A stretch of 7,033 nucleotides of DNA from Pseudomonadota bacterium (lineage in GTDB: Bacteria; Pseudomonadota; Alphaproteobacteria; Acetobacterales; Acetobacteraceae), in the NCBI GenBank assembly GCA_021805485.1, contig JAJZFF010000205.1:1-7033 (forward strand), written 5' to 3'. Each line of letters begins with the position of its first letter. The first letter of the stretch is position 1. Position numbers and translations under genes: made by a program. The notes below the pieces were generated by a model that saw only the letters and a list, made by a program, of their open reading frames with translations, was not told the DNA's origin and made no database searches. This document shows positions 1-7,033 of this stretch, piece by piece.

Positions 1-1
1 C

Positions 2-799
2 CCCGTCTACGACAAGCCGATGGTCTACTATCCGCTGTCGACCCTGCTGCTCGCCGGCATCCGCGACCTGCTGCTGATCTCCACCCCGCAGGACCTGCCC
101 CAGTTCCGCCGCCTGCTCGGCGACGGCAGCCAATACGGCATCCGCATCGGCTATGCCGCCCAGCCCTCGCCCGACGGCCTCGCCCAGGCCTTCCTGATCG
201 GCGCGGACTGGCTCGCCGGCGAGGCCTGCGCCCTCGCCCTCGGCGACAACCTCATCCACGCCGACCATCTCTCGCTCGCGCTGCGCCAGGCCGCCGGCCG
301 GGAGGCCGGCGCCACCGTCTTCGCCTACCAGGTGCGCGATCCCGAGCGCTACGGCGTCGTCACTTTCGATGGCGCCGGCCGCCCCATCGACATCGTCGAG
401 AAACCCACCGCCCCCGCCTCCAGCTGGGCGGTCACCGGCCTCTATTTCTACGATCGCCGGGTCAGCGAATTCGCCCGCCGCATCCGACCCTCCGCCCGCG
501 GCGAGCTCGAGATCACCGATCTCAACCGCCTCTATCTCGACGACGGCTCCCTCACCGTCGAGCGCCTCGGCCGCGGCACCGCCTGGCTCGACGCCGGAAC
601 CCCCGACTCCCTGCTCCAGGCCGCCACCTTCGTGCAGACCATCCAGGCCCGCCAGGGACAGCTCGTCGGCTGCCCCGAGGAAGTCGCCTTCCGCATGGGC
701 TTCATCGACGCCGACGCCCTGCGCCGCCACGCCGACCGCCTCGGCAAGACCGAACTCGGCCGCGTGCTGCGCGAACTCGCCGACGGAGAGCCCGCATGA
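2..799 (+). CDS. rfbA: Glucose-1-phosphate thymidylyltransferase, 5'-truncated by window edge
   Basis: RfbA/RmlA joins glucose-1-phosphate and dTTP to give dTDP-glucose and pyrophosphate, the first cytoplasmic step of dTDP-L-rhamnose synthesis. The open frame runs in from the left edge. It reads P-V-Y-D-K-P before the methionine at position 20, so that methionine is internal and not the start. Compared with enterobacterial RmlA (about 290 residues), roughly the first 29 residues are outside the window, including the nucleotide-binding G-G-x-G-T-R-L segment. The 265 visible residues carry the family signatures in order: [34 protein letters not shown] (metal/nucleotide site), [21 protein letters not shown] and GTAWLDAGT, then the C-terminal C-P-E-E-V-A-F-R. 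The gene appears intact. Its TGA stop overlaps the rfbC start by 4 bases (ATGA), implying translational coupling. Confidence 0.96.
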
Positions 800-1350
800 T
801 CGAGCCGCTCGACCTGCCCGGGGTGAAGCTCATCACCCCGCCCCGCTTCGCCGATTCCCGCGGCTGGTTCAGCGAAACCTGGAACCAGGCCAGGCTCGCC
901 GCCCTCGGCTTCAGCGAAACCTTCGTGCAGGACAACCACTCCTGCTCCACCCGGCCCGGAACCATCCGCGGCCTGCACTGCCAGATCGCCCCCTTCGCCC
1001 AGGGCAAGCTCGTCCGCTGCATCCGCGGCGCGATCTGGGACGTCGCCGTCGACATCCGCCACGGCTCGCCAAGCTTCGGCCGCTTCGCCGCCGCCGAACT
1101 CTCCGCCGCCAACGGCGCCCAGCTCTGGATCCCGCCCGGCTTCCTGCACGGCTTCTGCACCACCGAGCCCGATACCGAGGTCGTCTACAAGGTCACCGCC
1201 CCCTACGACAAAGCCTCCGAACGCGGCGTTATCTGGAACGACCCCGATCTCGCCCTGCCCTGGCCCGTCCCCGCCGGCACCGCCCTGCTCTCCGACAAGG
1301 ACACTCTCCTGCCCCGCCTGGCCGAGGCCGAACCCTGGTTCAGGCTCTGA
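796..1350 (+). CDS. rfbC: dTDP-4-dehydrorhamnose 3,5-epimerase
   Basis: RfbC/RmlC epimerises C3 and C5 of dTDP-4-keto-6-deoxyglucose, the third step of dTDP-L-rhamnose synthesis, as a cytoplasmic cupin dimer. The 184-residue length is normal for the family. Visible motifs are D-S-R-G-W-F at about 20-25, QDNHS at 45-49, the catalytic-histidine motif R-G-L-H at 58-61, and [10 protein letters not shown] at 111-120. Y131 (V-Y-K-V) matches the known general-acid tyrosine, and a S-D-K-D segment at 166-169 carries the partner aspartate. The residue after the catalytic histidine is Cys (RGLHCQ) where Tyr or Phe is commoner, probably a harmless variant. A GGAGAG ribosome site at 785-790 sits 5 bases before the ATG. 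The gene overlaps rfbA by 4 bases, and rfbD starts 1 base after its stop. Confidence 0.97.
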
Positions 1351-1351
1351 C

Positions 1352-2257
1352 ATGCCGACCCGCCCGATCCTCATCACCGGCGCGAGCGGCCAGCTCGGCC
1401 ACGCCCTCGCCACCCGCGCGCCCGCCGCCGGACTCCCCGCCCGCGCCGTCGGCCGTCCCGGCCTCGACTTCGACGCCCCGGAGACGATCGCCGCCGCCCT
1501 CGCCGCCGCCGATCCCGCCCTCGTCGTCAACGCCGCCGCCTGGACCGCCGTCGACGCCGCCGAGGCCAACGCCGACGCCGCATACCGCGCCAATCGCGAC
1601 GGCCCCGCGACCCTCGCCACCCTCTGCCGCGCCCGCGGCATCCCCCTCATCCACGTCTCGACCGACTATGTGTTCGACGGCACCAAGGGCGCGCCCTACA
1701 CCGAAGCCGACCCGATCGCCCCGCTCGGCGTCTATGGCGAAAGCAAGGCCGCCGGCGAGGAAGCCGTGCTCGCCTCGGGCGCGGATGCCATCATCCTGCG
1801 CACCGCCTGGGTGTTCTCCGCCACCGGCAAGAATTTCGCCCGCACCATGATCGCCGCCGCGCACCGCCTGCCGACGCTGCGCGTGGTTGCCGACCAGCGC
1901 GGCGCCCCCACCGCCGCCGAGGACCTCGCCGAGGCCATCCTCGCCATCGCCGCCCGCATCCTCGCCGAAGGCTGGCAGCCCGGCTTCGCCGGCATCTTCC
2001 ACGCCACCGGCGCCGGCGACACCACCTGGCACGGCTTCGCCACCGAAATCCTCGCCATCGCCGCACTCCACGGCACGCCCCACCCCGAAATCATCCCCAT
2101 CGCCACCGCGGACTGGCCCACCCCGGCACGCCGCCCCGCCGACTCCCGCCTCGATGCCACAAAACTCAAACAAACCTTCGGCCTCGCGCTCCCAGACTGG
2201 CAAAACGCCACCGCCCGCATCGTCCCCGCAATCCTCGCGCAGGACGAAACAACGTGA
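1352..2257 (+). CDS. rfbD: dTDP-4-dehydrorhamnose reductase
   Basis: RfbD/RmlD reduces dTDP-4-keto-L-rhamnose to dTDP-L-rhamnose with NAD(P)H, the last step of the pathway. It is an extended short-chain dehydrogenase of 301 residues, normal length. The Rossmann glycine motif T-G-A-S-G-Q-L-G lies at 9-16, V-V-N-A-A-A-W-T-A-V-D at 58-68, and the S-T-D-Y-V-F-D-G signature at 103-110. The catalytic Y-x-x-x-K is Y128/K132 (YGESK). L-R-T-A-W-V-F is at 149-155, and the substrate-side R-P-A-D-S-R-L-D at 261-268 is typical of RmlD. There is no strong ribosome site before the ATG. The 1-base gap to rfbC suggests translation is coupled. Its TGA overlaps the GTG start of the next, broken gene. Leucine is coded mostly by CTC, as in rfbA and rfbC. 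Confidence 0.97.
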   Translation: MPTRPILITGASGQLGHALATRAPAAGLPARAVGRPGLDFDAPETIAAALAAADPALVVNAAAWTAVDAAEANADAAYRANRDGPATLATLCRARGIPLIHVSTDYVFDGTKGAPYTEADPIAPLGVYGESKAAGEEAVLASGADAIILRTAWVFSATGKNFARTMIAAAHRLPTLRVVADQRGAPTAAEDLAEAILAIAARILAEGWQPGFAGIFHATGAGDTTWHGFATEILAIAALHGTPHPEIIPIATADWPTPARRPADSRLDATKLKQTFGLALPDWQNATARIVPAILAQDETT

Positions 2258-2445
2258 TCACCATCCTCCTCTCCACATTCAACGGATCACACTTCCTCCA
2301 GGATCAGCTCAACAGCTTCGCCGCTGCGACTCCGCAACAGGCGCCGCCGGCGGGGGAGGCGCCGGGAAGAACTGCTGGCGGACACGTTCAAGCCAGCCCG
2401 GCTTGTGGCGTCCGTATTGCAGGACGCGCGCGCGCTCGATCGTGA
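2254..2445 (+). pseudogene. Family 2 glycosyltransferase, N-terminal fragment only
   Basis: The frame opens with a GTG that overlaps the rfbD stop (GTGA); an AGGA lies 9 bases upstream at 2241-2244. Its first 22 residues, M-I-T-I-L-L-S-T-F-N-G-S and then F-L-Q-D-Q-L-N-S-F, match the N-terminal strand and nucleotide-binding T-[FY]-N-G segment of GT2 rhamnosyltransferase-like enzymes, which usually exceed 280 residues. After about residue 26 (near 2331) the translation becomes proline- and glycine-rich with no GT2 character, and it stops after 63 codons. No D-D-G-S or D-x-D follows in any plus frame. The remaining DNA is the antisense of a DUF190 gene. The natural reading is a glycosyltransferase that followed rfbD and lost about 90% of its length to a deletion or rearrangement. 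The exact breakpoint cannot be fixed from this sequence alone. Confidence 0.75.
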
Positions 2446-2734
2446 CCAGGCCGCTCTGCATCATCGAATCCAGAACCGGCAGGAAGACCTCGATCCTGTC
2501 GGTGGCGTCGACGATCTCGACGATGACGGGATGATCGTCGGAGAACGGCAGAAGGTGCCCCTCATGCAGGCGCCCTGTATGGCCGAAGCCGAGCGTGCCG
2601 CGCAGCACGGTGGCGCCGGCGAGCCCGTGATCCCGCGCCGCGTGAACGATCGCGATGAACAGCGACGTCCCGCCATGGCGGTCGGCCGAGCTGGTATAGA
2701 TCCGCAGCAGCGAAGCCTCGTGTGGAACATCCAT
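2309..2734 (-). CDS. DUF190 (PII-like) protein, copy 1, with proline-rich tail
   Basis: A 141-residue DUF190 family protein. The family has a PII-like ferredoxin fold, and the molecular role of most members is unknown. The domain spans about residues 8-107. It has L-L-R-I-Y at 9-13, G-L-A-G-A-T-V-L-R-G at 37-46, G-F-G at 49-51, H-P-V-I-V-E-I-V-D at 68-76, the F-L-P-V-L-D segment at 84-89 and G-L-V-T-I-E at 95-100. A 34-residue tail follows (K-P-G-W-L-E-R-V-R-Q, then P-A-P-P-P-P-A-A-P). Its last 8-12 residues are read from DNA that on the plus strand encodes the glycosyltransferase fragment, so the original C-terminus may have been replaced at the junction. The start is supported by AGGAGG at 2743-2748 (minus strand), 8 bases before the ATG. 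It lies 30 bases downstream of the second DUF190 gene and is last in the operon. It has about 40% gap-free identity to that neighbour, counted by eye. Confidence 0.9.
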   Translation of the reverse strand: MDVPHEASLLRIYTSSADRHGGTSLFIAIVHAARDHGLAGATVLRGTLGFGHTGRLHEGHLLPFSDDHPVIVEIVDATDRIEVFLPVLDSMMQSGLVTIERARVLQYGRHKPGWLERVRQQFFPAPPPPAAPVAESQRRSC

Positions 2735-2764: not shown

Positions 2765-3112
2765 TCAGGCCGGGGCCGGCGAACCGGGAACGATCTTTCG
2801 CATCTTGAGCGCCTCCAGCGTGACCACGCCGGAGGGAATGATCGGCTCGATCACCGGCAGGAACGCCTCGATCCGGTCCGGCCGGTCGATGATCTCGACG
2901 ACGATGGGCTGATGCGCCCCGGCATCGACGTTGATGCCCGTCCTCATTCCGCGCGAGGTGCCAAAGCCCATCGGGGCCGGCAGCGCCGTGCCGCCGGCCA
3001 GCCCGGCCCGCATCGCCGCATCGAGGATCGCGCGATAGAGCGGCTGGCCGCCGGCCATGTCATCCTCGCCCAGGAAAACCCTGAGCAGAAGGGCATCTTC
3101 CATGATGCGCAT
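2765..3112 (-). CDS. DUF190 (PII-like) protein, copy 2
   Basis: A compact 115-residue DUF190 protein, essentially the bare domain. It shows L-L-L-R-V-F-L-G at 8-15, G-G-Q-P-L-Y at 21-26, G-L-A-G-G-T at 37-42, G-F-G at 49-51, P-I-V-V-E-I-I-D at 69-76, F-L-P-V at 84-87 and S-G-V-V-T-L-E at 94-100. It aligns to its downstream neighbour without gaps over the first 100 or so residues, with about 41 identities. The two differ most in the loop regions 43-48 and 52-68, which in PII-like folds correspond to ligand- or partner-contacting loops. The first ATG is chosen because a perfect AGGAGG at 3119-3124 lies 6 bases upstream; a second ATG three codons later is possible. The gene is preceded by the widest gap in the minus-strand operon, so it may have its own promoter. 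Function is unknown; a regulatory role for the adjacent membrane complex is inference. Confidence 0.92.
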   Translation of the reverse strand: MRIMEDALLLRVFLGEDDMAGGQPLYRAILDAAMRAGLAGGTALPAPMGFGTSRGMRTGINVDAGAHQPIVVEIIDRPDRIEAFLPVIEPIIPSGVVTLEALKMRKIVPGSPAPA

Positions 3113-3233: not shown

Positions 3234-5210
3234 TCAGAACAGGGCGACAACGAGAATGGCGACGAGCAGCAGGCCGATGATGCCGAGATAGAGGTTGAGA
3301 GAGCCCGACTGCAAAACCCGGGCCCGCCGGGCGAGGCCATTCGCCAGCCGCACCGCCGGGCCGAACAGGGCGGGGCCGAAAATCGGCGCCACGTCGTGCT
3401 CGAAACGCAGATGCTTCACGAAATACGGCGACAGGCTGGTTTCCACGCCGGTTTCCGCGCGCGGGCGATAGACGAAGCTGTAGAACGTCCGGAGCGAATT
3501 CGAGAAGGTCAGCGCCGTGGTCGCATTGCGCCGGTCGAGGCGCGGCGAGCCGCCATACCAGACGGGAACCCGCCGCGCTGGGCGGCGTCTGGACAGCAGG
3601 ATCGCCATCACCGGCACCAGCGCCAGCAGCGGCATCACGATGACCAGCTTCGACGGCGAGATGAAGGCGAAGCCGGCGCTCAGCGGCACCAGGATCCATC
3701 CGTCGGCCATGTGCGCCGCGGCATCGATGGCGCCATGCGCGGGCCAGGAACGGGCGAGCGCGCCGAGCCAGACCGGCATTCCCACGGCCAGCGCGAGCAC
3801 GGCGAGGCCAAGCGCGCCGACCGCGGATTGATGCCGCGCGGGAAGCCGCGCGCCGCCGTCCGCCGCGCGCCCTTGCAGGCCGACGCCGAACAGCTTGACG
3901 AAGGTGGCGAAGGCGATCGCCGCCGTCAGCGCGAGGCCCGCGCCGGTCAGCACGAGCGTCAGGCGCCCGGCCAGCCCCGGCAGGTGGAACCCCTGGAACA
4001 CGGTCTGGAACATGAACCATTCCGAGACGAACCCGGCCTGGGGCGGCATCGCCGCCAGGCTCATCGCGGCGAACAGCGCCCCGATGCCGAAAATGGGCGT
4101 GTTCGCGCGCAGCATTCCATCCTGCCGGATGGCGTAGCCGCCGGTTGCGGCGAACACGCCGTCGGCGGCGAGAAACAGCGCGCCCTTGGCAAGCGCGTGG
4201 GCGGCGAGATGCAGCAGCGCGACCGTGAACGCCAGCCCGGCGAACAGGGGCAGTTGCCCCGCCGCGAACAGCAGCGCGGCGCCGAGCGCGGTCACCGCGA
4301 CCGACGCGTTCTCCGCCGTGGAGAAGGCGAGCAGCGCCCGCCAGTCCTCCTGCTGGAAGGCGTAGAGCGTGGTGAGGATCGCGCTGGTCACGCCGATGGC
4401 GCACAGCGCGATGCCGAACCCCTCGTCCACCCCGCCCGGCAGCCAGACCAGCAGGCCTCGCGCCAGGCCGAAGAACGCGGCGTTGAGCACGACGCCGGAC
4501 AGCACCGCCCCGGTCGCGCCCGAGCCCGCCGCATAGGCGCCCGGAAACCATTCGTAGAACGGCAGCAGCCCGAGCTTGGCGCCGAACCCGACGATGAGCA
4601 GCCCCCCCGCGATCGCCGGGCCATAGAGCGCCGCGCCGCGCCAGGCCGACGCGAACCCCCCAAAGTCCAACGAACCCGAGGCCGTCCCGAGGACCAGAAC
4701 GGCAGCGAGCAGCGCCACCGCTCCCACCTCGAGCAGGCCGAGCATGAACAGCGCGTGGCCTCCCGCCCCTTCACCCAGCCGCTCGCCGAGGATCATCGCC
4801 GCGCCGCCCAGGCTCATGATCTCCCAGGCGATGAGGAATGCGGCCCCCTGCGTCACCCCGAAGACGCCGAGCGCGCCGATCAGGCTCATCGACAGTCCGA
4901 ACAGCCAGAACCGCCCGCCCCGCCCCGGCGAGCCGAGCCAGGCCGCCAGCATCGCCGGCGCCAGCCCGAAGCCGAACAGCCAGAGCGCGGCCGGGGAGAG
5001 CGTGAAGCCGGAACCCTCGTCGGCGATGCGGAAGACGGGCAGCGCCACCGGCGGACTGGCCCCCGGCAGCGCCAGGATCGCGGCGATCATGCCGGCGAGG
5101 CAACCCAGCCCGGCCAGCCCGCGGCCGAACGCGACCCCCCTGCCCGCCAGCGCGATGAGGCCGGCGACCAGCCACAGCAGGACGGCGAGGCCGATCAGGT
5201 CATTCACCAT
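3234..5210 (-). CDS. HyfB/NuoL-type proton-translocating membrane subunit
   Basis: A 658-residue, highly hydrophobic polytopic protein of the antiporter-like family (complex I NuoL/M/N, Mrp, HycC/HyfB). Its length is close to HyfB of hydrogenase 4 (about 670). Key proton-channel residues are in place: E130 in I-A-W-E-I-M-S-L (helix 5), K212 in G-F-G-A-K-L-G-L-L-P-F (broken helix 7, followed by Y-E-W-F-P), Q-E-D-W-R-A-L-L-A-F-S at 287-297, H334/H338 and K342 in H-A-L-A-K-G-A-L-F, and K439 in F-V-K-L-F-G (helix 12). The C-terminal S-F-V-Y-R-P at 578-583 followed by a last helix (about 636-657) is HycC/HyfB-like, not NuoM-like. It probably couples electron transfer in the soluble arm to ion movement across the cytoplasmic membrane. 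The ATG overlaps the upstream fusion gene by 11 bases, with GGAGG at 5219-5223. It is less likely to be DabB, because no DabA-like (DUF2309) partner is present. Confidence 0.93.
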   Translation of the reverse strand: MVNDLIGLAVLLWLVAGLIALAGRGVAFGRGLAGLGCLAGMIAAILALPGASPPVALPVFRIADEGSGFTLSPAALWLFGFGLAPAMLAAWLGSPGRGGRFWLFGLSMSLIGALGVFGVTQGAAFLIAWEIMSLGGAAMILGERLGEGAGGHALFMLGLLEVGAVALLAAVLVLGTASGSLDFGGFASAWRGAALYGPAIAGGLLIVGFGAKLGLLPFYEWFPGAYAAGSGATGAVLSGVVLNAAFFGLARGLLVWLPGGVDEGFGIALCAIGVTSAILTTLYAFQQEDWRALLAFSTAENASVAVTALGAALLFAAGQLPLFAGLAFTVALLHLAAHALAKGALFLAADGVFAATGGYAIRQDGMLRANTPIFGIGALFAAMSLAAMPPQAGFVSEWFMFQTVFQGFHLPGLAGRLTLVLTGAGLALTAAIAFATFVKLFGVGLQGRAADGGARLPARHQSAVGALGLAVLALAVGMPVWLGALARSWPAHGAIDAAAHMADGWILVPLSAGFAFISPSKLVIVMPLLALVPVMAILLSRRRPARRVPVWYGGSPRLDRRNATTALTFSNSLRTFYSFVYRPRAETGVETSLSPYFVKHLRFEHDVAPIFGPALFGPAVRLANGLARRARVLQSGSLNLYLGIIGLLLVAILVVALF

Positions 5211-5991
5211 CGATCCGCCCTCCGCGCACGCGTTGCGCCCGGCGCCCGAGGAACATCAGCAGCGCCTCGATGATCGCGGCCGGATTGGGCGGGCAACCGG
5301 GCAGGTAGAGGTCGACCGGCAGCGCCTCCTCGAGGCCGGACAGGCACGGCCCGCCCGGCGCGATGCCGCCGGACACCGCGCAGGTGCCGCAGGCCATGAC
5401 CCAGCGCGGCGCCGGCATCGCCTCCCAGGTGCGGCGCAGCGGCTCCAGCATCGCCCGCGTCACCGGGCCGGTCACCAGCAGCAGATCGGCGAAGCGCGGC
5501 GAGGGCGTGAAGAAGATGCCCAGCCGGTGCAGGTTGTAGAACGGGTTGTTCAGGGCCTGCAGCTCGGATTCGCAGCCATTGCAGGAGCCGGCATCGACAT
5601 GCCGCACATGCAGGCTGCGCCGGAAGCCGCGCCCCGGACCCTCCGGCGCGGCCGCGGCCGCCGGGCCGGCGGCGATGCCGGTCCTGAGATCGTCGCGCGC
5701 CCGCACGCCGAACGCCCAGTCGCCGCTCTCGGCCAGCGCGCCGGTCGGGCAGGCTTCGACGCAACGCTGGCAGACGACGCAGCGCCCGTAATCGAGCGCG
5801 ATCCGCGCGCCGGAAAGACTGATCGCGCCGGTCGGGCAGGATGCCGCGCATGCGTCGCACCCCGCCTCGCAGCGCCCGGGGTCGAGCCGCGGCATCCCGA
5901 CCACGCCATCCTGGCCGTCCGGCCCCGGCTTCAGCGGCCACGGCGTGGTGGCTGGCCCTTCGAGCAGGCCGATCAGCGTCCAGAGTGCCAT
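5200..5991 (-). CDS. Ferredoxin-NuoB/HycG-like fusion subunit
   Basis: Two electron-transfer modules lie in one 263-residue chain. The N-terminal part (about 1-100) is a 2[4Fe-4S] ferredoxin domain like HycF/HyfH/NuoI, with cysteines C41, C45, C48, C52-P and C71, C74, C77, C81-P. The C-terminal part (about 125-255) is the complex I 20-kDa / hydrogenase-3 small subunit. It has C137-N-G-C140-E, C204 in C-G-T-C-A-V-S-G-G, and C233 in P-G-C-P-P-N-P, the expected ligands of the proximal (N2-like) cluster. An alanine/proline-rich linker (about 106-119) joins them. These are normally separate genes (hycF/hycG, nuoI/nuoB). I chose the ATG at 5991 because GGAGG at 5997-6001 sits 5 bases before it; a GTG at 5997, two codons upstream, would overlap that ribosome site. 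The first ferredoxin motif starts C-x3-C where C-x2-C is usual. The gene lies 13 bases after the large-subunit stop and overlaps the membrane-subunit gene by 11 bases. Confidence 0.93.
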   Translation of the reverse strand: MALWTLIGLLEGPATTPWPLKPGPDGQDGVVGMPRLDPGRCEAGCDACAASCPTGAISLSGARIALDYGRCVVCQRCVEACPTGALAESGDWAFGVRARDDLRTGIAAGPAAAAAPEGPGRGFRRSLHVRHVDAGSCNGCESELQALNNPFYNLHRLGIFFTPSPRFADLLLVTGPVTRAMLEPLRRTWEAMPAPRWVMACGTCAVSGGIAPGGPCLSGLEEALPVDLYLPGCPPNPAAIIEALLMFLGRRAQRVRGGRIDGE

Positions 5992-5996
5992 CCGCA

Positions 5997-6001
5997 CCTC
6001 C
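5997..6001 (-). promoter_or_regulatory. Ribosome binding site that fixes the fusion-subunit start
   Basis: The minus strand reads GGAGG here inside a GGGGGAGG run, 5 bases before the ATG at 5991. A GTG at 5995-5997 would overlap this site, so the ATG is the more plausible initiation codon. The site lies between the large-subunit stop (6005-6007) and the fusion gene. Confidence 0.6.
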
Positions 6002-6004
6002 CCC

Positions 6005-7033
6005 TCATCGCGCGCATCCGGCGATGGTCAGGCCGAAACTCGCCTCGTTGATCGCGTAGTCCATCATGTTCGTGCCGTGCACGGTGTAGGGAAACACCCG
6101 CCAGTTGGAGAAGGAGGGCGACTTGATCTTGACCCGCGCGAGCCGCCCGTCGGGCCCGACATGCACGGCATAGATCAGCGTGCCGCGCGGCGATTCCGCC
6201 CAGCCCATCGCCTCGGCGCCGGCGGCCGGCGCGCAGGCGACCCGGATTGCGCCGCCGGGCGTCAGCGCGATGGCGCGCTCGATCATCAGCAGCGCATTCT
6301 CGATCTCGGCGATCCGCACGCGAGCACGGGCGTGGGCATCGCCGTCGGTCCCGGTGGCGACGGCGAGGGCGAGGTCGGGATCGTCGTAGGCGGCATAGGC
6401 ATGGTCGCGCCGCAGGTCGCGGTCGAGGCCGGAGGCACGGGCAACCGGCCCGGTCGCGCCCTGGTCGAACGCCACCTCGCGGGGCAGCACGCCGGTCGTC
6501 GCCAGCCGGTCGAAATGGCTTTCCGAGGCGTCCAGCCGCGCGATGTAGCGGCGGATCGGCGCGCGCAGGGCATCGAGCGCCCCGGCAAGACCCTCGACGC
6601 GCAGCTCCCGCCGCAGCCCGCCCGGCGCGATCACGCCGCGCAGGAACCGGCTGCCCGTCACCCGGGCGCCGATCTGCTTGACCCGCTCGGCAAGCAGCGC
6701 GCCTTCGGCATGGGCCACCTTCAGCGTCGTCGTATCGGCAAGATGGCCGAGATAATGAAGATGATTGTAAAGCCGCTCGAGCTCGGCGACGATCACCCGC
6801 TGGTAGCGCGCGCGGCCGGGAACGGCCACCTGCGCGGCGGCCTCCACCGCCTGCGCATAGGCAAGGGCATGCGCCACGCTGCCGACCCCCGAAACGCGCT
6901 CGGCCAGCACGAGCCCGGTCTCCGGCGTCTGGTCGACGAAGCGGTCTTCCATGCCGCGATGCTTGAGGAACAGGTGCGGCACGTAATGCAGGATCGCCTC
7001 GCCGACATAGAAGAAGCTGAACTCGGCCGATTC
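6005..7033 (-). CDS. Ehr-type (HycE/HyfG-like) large subunit without Ni-Fe ligands, 5' end cut
   Basis: 342 residues are visible. The frame runs off the right edge, so an apparent GTG start at 6982 is internal (17 more codons read through to 7033). It belongs to the complex I 49-kDa / group 4 hydrogenase large-subunit family: F-Y-V-G-E-A-I-L-H-Y at 8-17, L-K-H-R-G-M-E at 23-29, A-E-R-V at 44-47, E-L-E-R-L-Y-N-H-L at 84-92, R-G-V-I-A-P-G-G at 132-139, G-P-V-A-R-A-S-G at 195-202, E-S-P-R-G at 280-284 and K-S-P-S-F-S-N at 304-310. The hydrogenase C-G-I-C is S48-G-V-G51 (plus-strand 6881-6892). The C-terminal C-x-x-C is missing, leaving only an unpaired Cys three residues from the end. This fits Ehr (energy-converting hydrogenase-related) complexes, which share the architecture but cannot bind the Ni-Fe centre. 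The protein should sit on the cytoplasmic face with the fusion subunit. Its substrate is unknown. Confidence 0.9.
   Translation of the reverse strand, partial: ESAEFSFFYVGEAILHYVPHLFLKHRGMEDRFVDQTPETGLVLAERVSGVGSVAHALAYAQAVEAAAQVAVPGRARYQRVIVAELERLYNHLHYLGHLADTTTLKVAHAEGALLAERVKQIGARVTGSRFLRGVIAPGGLRRELRVEGLAGALDALRAPIRRYIARLDASESHFDRLATTGVLPREVAFDQGATGPVARASGLDRDLRRDHAYAAYDDPDLALAVATGTDGDAHARARVRIAEIENALLMIERAIALTPGGAIRVACAPAAGAEAMGWAESPRGTLIYAVHVGPDGRLARVKIKSPSFSNWRVFPYTVHGTNMMDYAINEASFGLTIAGCAR

Follow-up and report, generated by a model that had tools for sequence, protein, structure and literature searches.

The locus described here raises the question of what a hydrogenase-like complex could be used for when its large subunit has lost the cysteines of the Ni-Fe site. 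The genes concerned lie on the minus strand of a 7,033-nt stretch of DNA, referred to here as the window, in the following arrangement:

6005..7033, minus strand: NuoC/D-, HycE-like large subunit, C-terminal 342 aa of about 476, with its 5' end beyond the window
6881..6901, minus strand: ERVSGVG, against DRVCGIC, with the first Ni-Fe Cys pair gone (alignment to E. coli HycE)
6008..6040, minus strand: SFGLTIAGCAR, against SLDPCYSCTDR, with the second Ni-Fe Cys pair gone; a clade-specific conserved end (alignment to HycE)
5200..5997, minus strand: fusion of a two-[4Fe-4S] ferredoxin domain (HycF/NuoI-like) and a NuoB/HycG-like small subunit (PF12838, PF00037, PF01058)
3234..5210, minus strand: HyfB/NuoL-like antiporter-type membrane subunit (PF00361, 7.7e-28)
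2765..3112, minus strand: first DUF190 protein (PF02641, 8.9e-26), 121 nt past the HyfB-like gene
2309..2734, minus strand: second DUF190 protein (PF02641, 8.1e-33)
1-2257, plus strand: rmlA, rmlC and rmlD, unrelated to the minus-strand operon

The large-subunit ORF enters at 7033, running off the window, and stops at 6005 after 342 aa. A database protein of 476 aa (P0001) shows a single difference, V42A, over the stretch shared with this ORF and, given its full length, shows that the N-terminal 134 aa lie beyond the window. The product matches PF00346 and PF00374, and that of the HyfB-like gene matches PRK06521 (hydrogenase 4 subunit B) at 3.3e-79, below the cut-off of this model. Under the explanation that is slightly favoured here, a fluoride-response operon would have its 3' half in the window.

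At the other end, positions 1-2309 share 95% identity with an Acidiphilium multivorum AIU301 plasmid, NC_015188.1, and the similarity stops there. The matching stretch consists of the rml genes and the beginning of a gene annotated as a glycosyltransferase, whose frame is broken off after about 18 codons, exactly where the fluoride operon ends with the stop of its final gene (2309). The reading frame 2254-2445, without a Pfam match, is explained instead by this DNA comparison. The edge at about 2309 looks like an insertion or recombination boundary, or possibly an assembly join. The rml cluster (1-2258) is also 95% identical to the 23-kb mobilizable plasmid CP084176.1 of Acidithiobacillus ferrooxidans YQ-N3, which belongs to a different bacterial class from the source of the window, and this suggests that the sugar genes may have moved between acidophiles.

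A link with fluoride was first suspected from the genes that surround the annotated plasmid relatives, among which crcB, a CLC-type channel, enolase, inorganic pyrophosphatase, phosphoglycerate mutase, DUF190 and MutS-like genes appear in varying sets. The relatives compared occupy 83 loci, namely the best 80 of 197 confirmed genome relatives and three of five plasmid places (L081, L082 and L087), at 55% identity or more. The Rfam model, applied to ten loci, detected 24 fluoride riboswitches in seven of them (L003, L005, L007, L010, L083, L086 and L087), with 50-56 bits against a cut-off of 34 in L003, L005, L007, L010 and L087; no Rfam riboswitch was found in L001, L002 and L046, whose DNA begins less than 2.6 kb before the match. 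A covariance model was then built from these 24 riboswitches and run over the window and 94 loci. The crcB motif (RF01734) is present in 63/63 relatives of at least 55% identity with at least 4.6 kb of upstream DNA, a set including the near-copies L048/L050 and L066/L067; since L003, L005, L007 and L087 supplied sequences to the model, 59/59 are independent of it. The motif has the same orientation as the operon; counted upstream from the query start, the nearest copy is 3672-4158 nt (median 3758) away, and the weakest scores 37.3 bits. Five shorter loci reaching 3.8-4.25 kb upstream also have it, and the other 15 of the 83 end short of the site. Over these 68 loci, 42-531 nt (median 109.5) separate the riboswitch end from the start of the first gene, which is NuoH-like. 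Some loci carry a second, more distant riboswitch, and one in L039 lies outside the operon leader.

The same motif was found in 0/32 control loci, comprising nine plasmid and ten genome loci of ordinary Ehr complexes, ten true formate hydrogenlyases (67-97% identical to HycE) and the hyc, hyf and nuo loci of E. coli, individual ones of which may not include the operon start; the top scores were 20.2 bits (L134, E 0.064) and 16.0 bits (L131, E 0.57). The whole genomes of 12 carriers contain 2-24 riboswitches each, with at least one above the Rfam cut-off in 12/12. The highest number belongs to Ancylobacter dichloromethanicus (the genome of L027), in which 23 of the 24 matches, 21 of them over the Rfam cut-off, are gathered on one contig (C49, 15628-71019) in a very large fluoride island of about 56 kb. 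Across 398 genomes drawn evenly over the phylum, 73 HycE-like places (1e-30) and 77 riboswitch places were located, the latter with stricter filters under which weak riboswitches may be lost; comparing both lists by eye, the only pair within 10 kb involves the fluoride-clade gene of A. iwatense. The other large subunit of this organism, encoded on contig C75, carries the motif SSGG and is an ordinary Ehr protein; the riboswitch search gave no match on that contig.

There is very little doubt, therefore, that the operon family belongs to the fluoride regulon. Within the window there is no riboswitch, the two matches obtained being to unrelated families and both below their gathering scores. The nearest relative with a complete operon (L003, 80% identity) has one and, on this basis, the copy in the window, with its leader beyond the edge, very probably belongs to the same regulon and would be under the same control. 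The first-pass annotation missed both the riboswitch and the separate position of the clade, because both lie outside the window.

The gene order of the family is riboswitch, NuoH-like, HyfE-like, HyfF-like, HycE/NuoCD-like, ferredoxin-NuoB fusion and HyfB-like, often with DUF190 or CrcB nearby. A profile search of all ORFs in the 53 loci of at least 15 kb recovered DUF190 in 45, CrcB in 35, enolase in 23, MutS-like proteins in 23, dynamin-like proteins in 17, phosphoglycerate mutase in 13, pyrophosphatase in 7 and CLC in 7, and each of these eight families was absent from the control loci (0/32). At least one among CrcB, DUF190, enolase, pyrophosphatase, CLC and phosphoglycerate mutase accompanies the operon in 47/53 long loci, and none of them in 6/53.

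Of the gene families looked for, DUF190 is the one most often present beside the operon, and the window carries two such genes behind those of the putative pump. DUF190 proteins have a PII-like fold and may be fluoride-linked regulators. The DUF190 genes had also suggested CO2/bicarbonate transport by a DabB and a PII-like protein, an idea that was dropped because the neighbours are fluoride genes; a literature search gave no support for it. Another recurrent feature of the fluoride islands is a pair of proteins assigned to MutS by annotation or by match (L003, 13962-17062; L081, 3008-6090); in the L003 pair, only MutS domain V is recognised.

The defect that gives this complex its interest is located by alignment of the window protein with E. 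coli HycE, in which C241, C244, C531 and C534 correspond to S, G, T and G. The two motifs concerned, ERVSGVG (residues 45-51, 6901-6881) and SFGLTIAGCAR (residues 332-342, 6040-6008), are those that the first-pass annotation had pointed out as replacing both Ni-Fe cysteine pairs, and the comparison bears this out: all four ligands are missing in each of the 84 clade members, which are the window and one from each of the 83 loci. Comparisons were also carried out on hand-picked sets of 36 and 46 sequences. The single cysteine near the C-terminus, C340, is kept in 81/84 rows; it is not a retained ligand, since it falls one column beyond HycE C534. The sequencing error that the annotation had named as a possible cause is excluded, because all 83 relatives examined, at 55% identity or more, also lack the four cysteines. 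Its opinion that the loss does not reflect decay holds as well, since the 12 Fe-S cysteines of the partner subunit and the charged residues of the pump subunits are conserved in the relatives. The C-terminal pocket has been remodelled and is strongly conserved as NMMDYAINEASFGLTxxGCxR. The position of the quinone-binding tyrosine of NuoD is occupied by Gly or Ala in 84/84 rows. Among solved structures, the best match for the large subunit is HycE of the E. coli formate hydrogenlyase (7z0s_E), in agreement with the profile search.

It is practically certain, from these data, that the complex is not a hydrogenase. HypD belongs to the Ni-Fe maturation machinery needed by [NiFe]-hydrogenases, and its profile (PF01924) is matched in 2/21 genomes carrying the complex and in none of the other 19, some of which may be incomplete drafts; among 14 reference genomes, this search gave a match in four, E. 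coli being one of them. The warning that automatic labels would mislead was well founded: among the best 120 of 2016 relatives, counted by eye, the source gives the name 'formate hydrogenlyase subunit 5' to 31 and 'Ni,Fe-hydrogenase III large subunit' to 10.

The alignment and tree that had been recommended also place the family apart from both hydrogenases and ordinary Ehr complexes. In a tree of 68 rows, in which roughly a quarter of the fluoride-clade rows were included, the sampled members form one branch (26 rows, 100/100), with L070 and L075 inside it (100/100). A wider branch (31 rows, 99/95) adds the riboswitch-linked proteins of M. branderi and Alicyclobacillus and a second set of paralogues, and ordinary Ehr proteins (29 rows, 100/96) and hydrogenases (7 rows, 100/97) are set apart. 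The rooting is unsure because the branch leading to the complex I root is very long, and long branches likewise make the placement of the M. branderi and Alicyclobacillus proteins unsure. The clade occurs in 1/398 genomes spread evenly over the phylum and in 5/150 of the family of A. iwatense, where no copy is identical to that of the window, so its distribution is scattered rather than universal.

Additional large subunits accompany some of these operons. In L060, a second diverged large subunit without the Ni-Fe cysteines (17292-18884, 37% identical to that of the window) lies directly behind the first operon and has its own fluoride riboswitch at 13981, 3.9 kb before the matched part; L073 also has a second copy, and L036 has a fragment of one at the end of the locus. 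On an Alicyclobacillus plasmid (L086), a riboswitch (9337-9407) is followed by a lone HycE-like large-subunit gene (9548-11044), and no HyfF-type or NuoB/ferredoxin-NuoB-type gene was found on this plasmid.

The remaining subunits look like those of a working redox machine. The ferredoxin-NuoB fusion, compared in 82/83 loci, has 12 cluster cysteines, four for each of the two ferredoxin clusters and four for the proximal cluster, each of them kept in 81 or 82 of the 82 relatives. Subunits were counted when an unbroken match covered 80% of the reference at 40% identity or more, which gave HyfB-like sequences in 75/83 loci, HyfF-like in 49/83 and NuoH-like in 68/83. The Glu and Lys sites compared in the membrane subunits are the proton-path residues of NuoM and NuoL. 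All 75 HyfB-like sequences have E144, K229 and a Glu at 399 (NuoL numbering), this Glu taking the place of NuoL K399 as in HyfB and HycC. The HyfF-like sequences keep E144, K173, K234 and E407 (NuoM numbering) in 47-49 of 49, and NuoM K265 is Asn in 49/49, as it also is in E. coli HyfF. PF00361 is matched in the window by the HyfB-like protein and in L003 by the HyfF-like one. Where NuoH, HyfC and HycD have an acidic loop, the NuoH-like subunit shows LPIHSST-HIEVYMIEEAR.LEYSG, a loop specific to the clade, and NuoH D213 is His in 67/68 sequences. The coupling may therefore differ from that of complex I, given this changed loop and the replaced quinone tyrosine.

Taking these results together, the explanation to which we give a little better than an even chance is that of a fluoride-induced, complex I-like ion pump that neither produces nor uses H2 and defends the proton-motive force and the internal pH against HF. 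Under acid conditions, fluoride would enter as HF and release H+ and F- in the cell; CrcB or CLC-type exporters would then expel F-, spending proton-motive force, and F- acting on the riboswitch would switch the complex on. Electrons would pass from a cytosolic carrier through the two [4Fe-4S] clusters to the proximal cluster, and from there to an acceptor lodged in what was the Ni-Fe pocket, now remodelled. For the carrier, ferredoxin is the likeliest candidate, a tentative one that falls somewhat short of an even chance. The redox energy would serve to expel H+ through the HyfB- and HyfF-like subunits, so that the proton-motive force and internal pH could be kept up without ATP while F- blocks glycolysis. 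As judged from sequence, a redox-driven proton pump is thus somewhat favoured for the complex. The first-pass annotation had already proposed an ion-pumping redox complex that does not use hydrogen; its second half stands, and the ion-pumping half goes no further than what the conserved residues suggest. Against the pump model, no gene for an electron donor or acceptor can be recognised, and the observations that fit it worst are the changed NuoH loop, the missing quinone tyrosine and the lone large subunit on the Alicyclobacillus plasmid, which a pump alone does not explain.

The same conserved antiporter-type subunits could belong to a non-redox cation/H+ antiporter, similar to Mrp or NhaA, that works under fluoride stress and in which the Fe-S arm is structural or acts as a switch. 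This is unlikely, since an arm with a purely structural role is hard to reconcile with 12 Fe-S cysteines kept in at least 81 of 82 sequences. Rather improbable, in turn, is an electron valve, whose main task would be to pass electrons on to another acceptor while glycolysis and respiration are blocked by fluoride, with pumping as a secondary effect. The intact Fe-S wire and the strong conservation of the remodelled C-terminal pocket agree with it, but no acceptor enzyme is evident in the operon and the pump residues are conserved to an equal degree.

A primary, redox-driven export pump for fluoride or HF itself, in which the catalytic site was removed and the proton-coupling arm refitted, would account for a riboswitch in every relative whose leader is present and for the clade-specific loop of the NuoH-like subunit. 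However, dedicated exporter genes lie nearby in the long loci (CrcB in 35/53, CLC in 7/53) and the proton-path residues look normal, which makes such a pump very unlikely. The fluoride exporters known to us (Fluc/CrcB channels and CLC-F antiporters) run on existing gradients. A functional formate hydrogenlyase or group 4 hydrogenase, as stated by the annotation and the fluoride literature and in keeping with the source-given names and with HycE as nearest relative in sequence and fold, is scarcely credible and is rejected, as the four Ni-Fe cysteines are missing in 84/84 members and HypD in 19/21 genomes. The window itself lacks a riboswitch, as would befit an ordinary Ehr complex unlinked to fluoride, with the riboswitch serving something else, but its presence at the same place and strand in 63/63 upstream regions, against 0/32 controls, leaves hardly any room for this reading.

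The proposed pump gives a different meaning to an old entry of the fluoride regulon. According to the relevant passage of Weinberg 2010 (PMC2864571), the crcB motif is found upstream of genes 'encoding formate hydrogen lyase', and passages of later papers (PMC8004769, PMC8752731) repeat this link. In a 2024 review (PMC11139923), formate hydrogenlyase is described, in the section concerned, as an enzyme oxidizing formic acid in anaerobic fermentation; the same source indicates, in the parts dealing with these subjects, that both the proton-motive force and the pH of the cytoplasm fall when HF enters, that fluoride export requires the proton-motive force, and that Na+/H+ antiporters come next in frequency among the riboswitch-linked classes. 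The riboswitch-linked 'formate hydrogen lyase' of these works is treated there as a true formate hydrogenlyase, in contrast to the family studied here, which is devoid of the hydrogenase site; the two are probably the same genes. In a search of the open literature, which may be incomplete, no paper was found stating that the riboswitch-linked enzyme lacks this site. Since a complex without the Ni-Fe site stands behind a fluoride riboswitch in close relatives, the genes listed as fluoride-induced 'formate hydrogenlyase' are probably not hydrogenases, and such genes are probably part of how some bacteria withstand fluoride. A puzzling entry becomes in this manner a testable idea, that of a dedicated complex I-like pump guarding the proton-motive force against HF. 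Moreover, one Ehr family now gains a physiological signal and therefore a condition for inducing, purifying and assaying it. Fluoride tolerance is relevant to life in acid and to microbes meant for the breakdown of fluorinated pollutants.

Compared with known systems, the family resembles the E. coli formate hydrogenlyase and hydrogenases-3 and -4 (HycE, HyfG; PDB 7z0s) in its set of NuoH-, HyfE-, HyfF-, NuoCD-, NuoI/NuoB- and HyfB-like subunits, and HycE is the nearest to its large subunit in sequence and fold. It differs from formate hydrogenlyase in that the four Ni-Fe cysteines are gone, the NuoI- and NuoB-like parts are fused, a fluoride riboswitch is present and HypD is usually absent; among the neighbours annotated in L081, L083 and L087, for which the gene tables are incomplete, there is no formate dehydrogenase. 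With respect to respiratory complex I, the quinone tyrosine is replaced and the NuoH loop changed, and the PLSDB gene tables of the same three loci, which are incomplete, list no NuoEFG close to the operon. The fluoride operon of Enterobacter cloacae FRM (ppaC, uspA, eno, gpmA, crcB, orf5249), as presented in the main text of its description (PMC5533749), has in common with this family its riboswitch control and several neighbours, namely eno, a pyrophosphatase, gpm and crcB; a term search of that main text returned no hydrogenase or dehydrogenase.

Another close known system is that of the Ehr complexes, described in a passage of PMC6349859 as related to group 4 hydrogenases without the Ni/Fe-coordinating residues, a loss with which the first-pass annotation had correctly associated the large subunit; a redox reaction coupled to charge translocation is only suspected in that text. 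The Ehr complexes of the hyfB-first type, known from Rhizobium, Cupriavidus and Azospirillum, share with the present family the loss of the Ni-Fe ligands and the antiporter-type subunits. However, they are only about 30-36% identical to it and form a separate clade, most of them with the motif R.SGDST ... KSFNCSYSG; hyfB comes early in their operons, NuoB is a separate gene where annotated, and there is no riboswitch. In its ligand loss and antiporter-like subunits the fluoride family corresponds to the definition of Ehr, and the redox-coupled translocation attributed to it here is putative.
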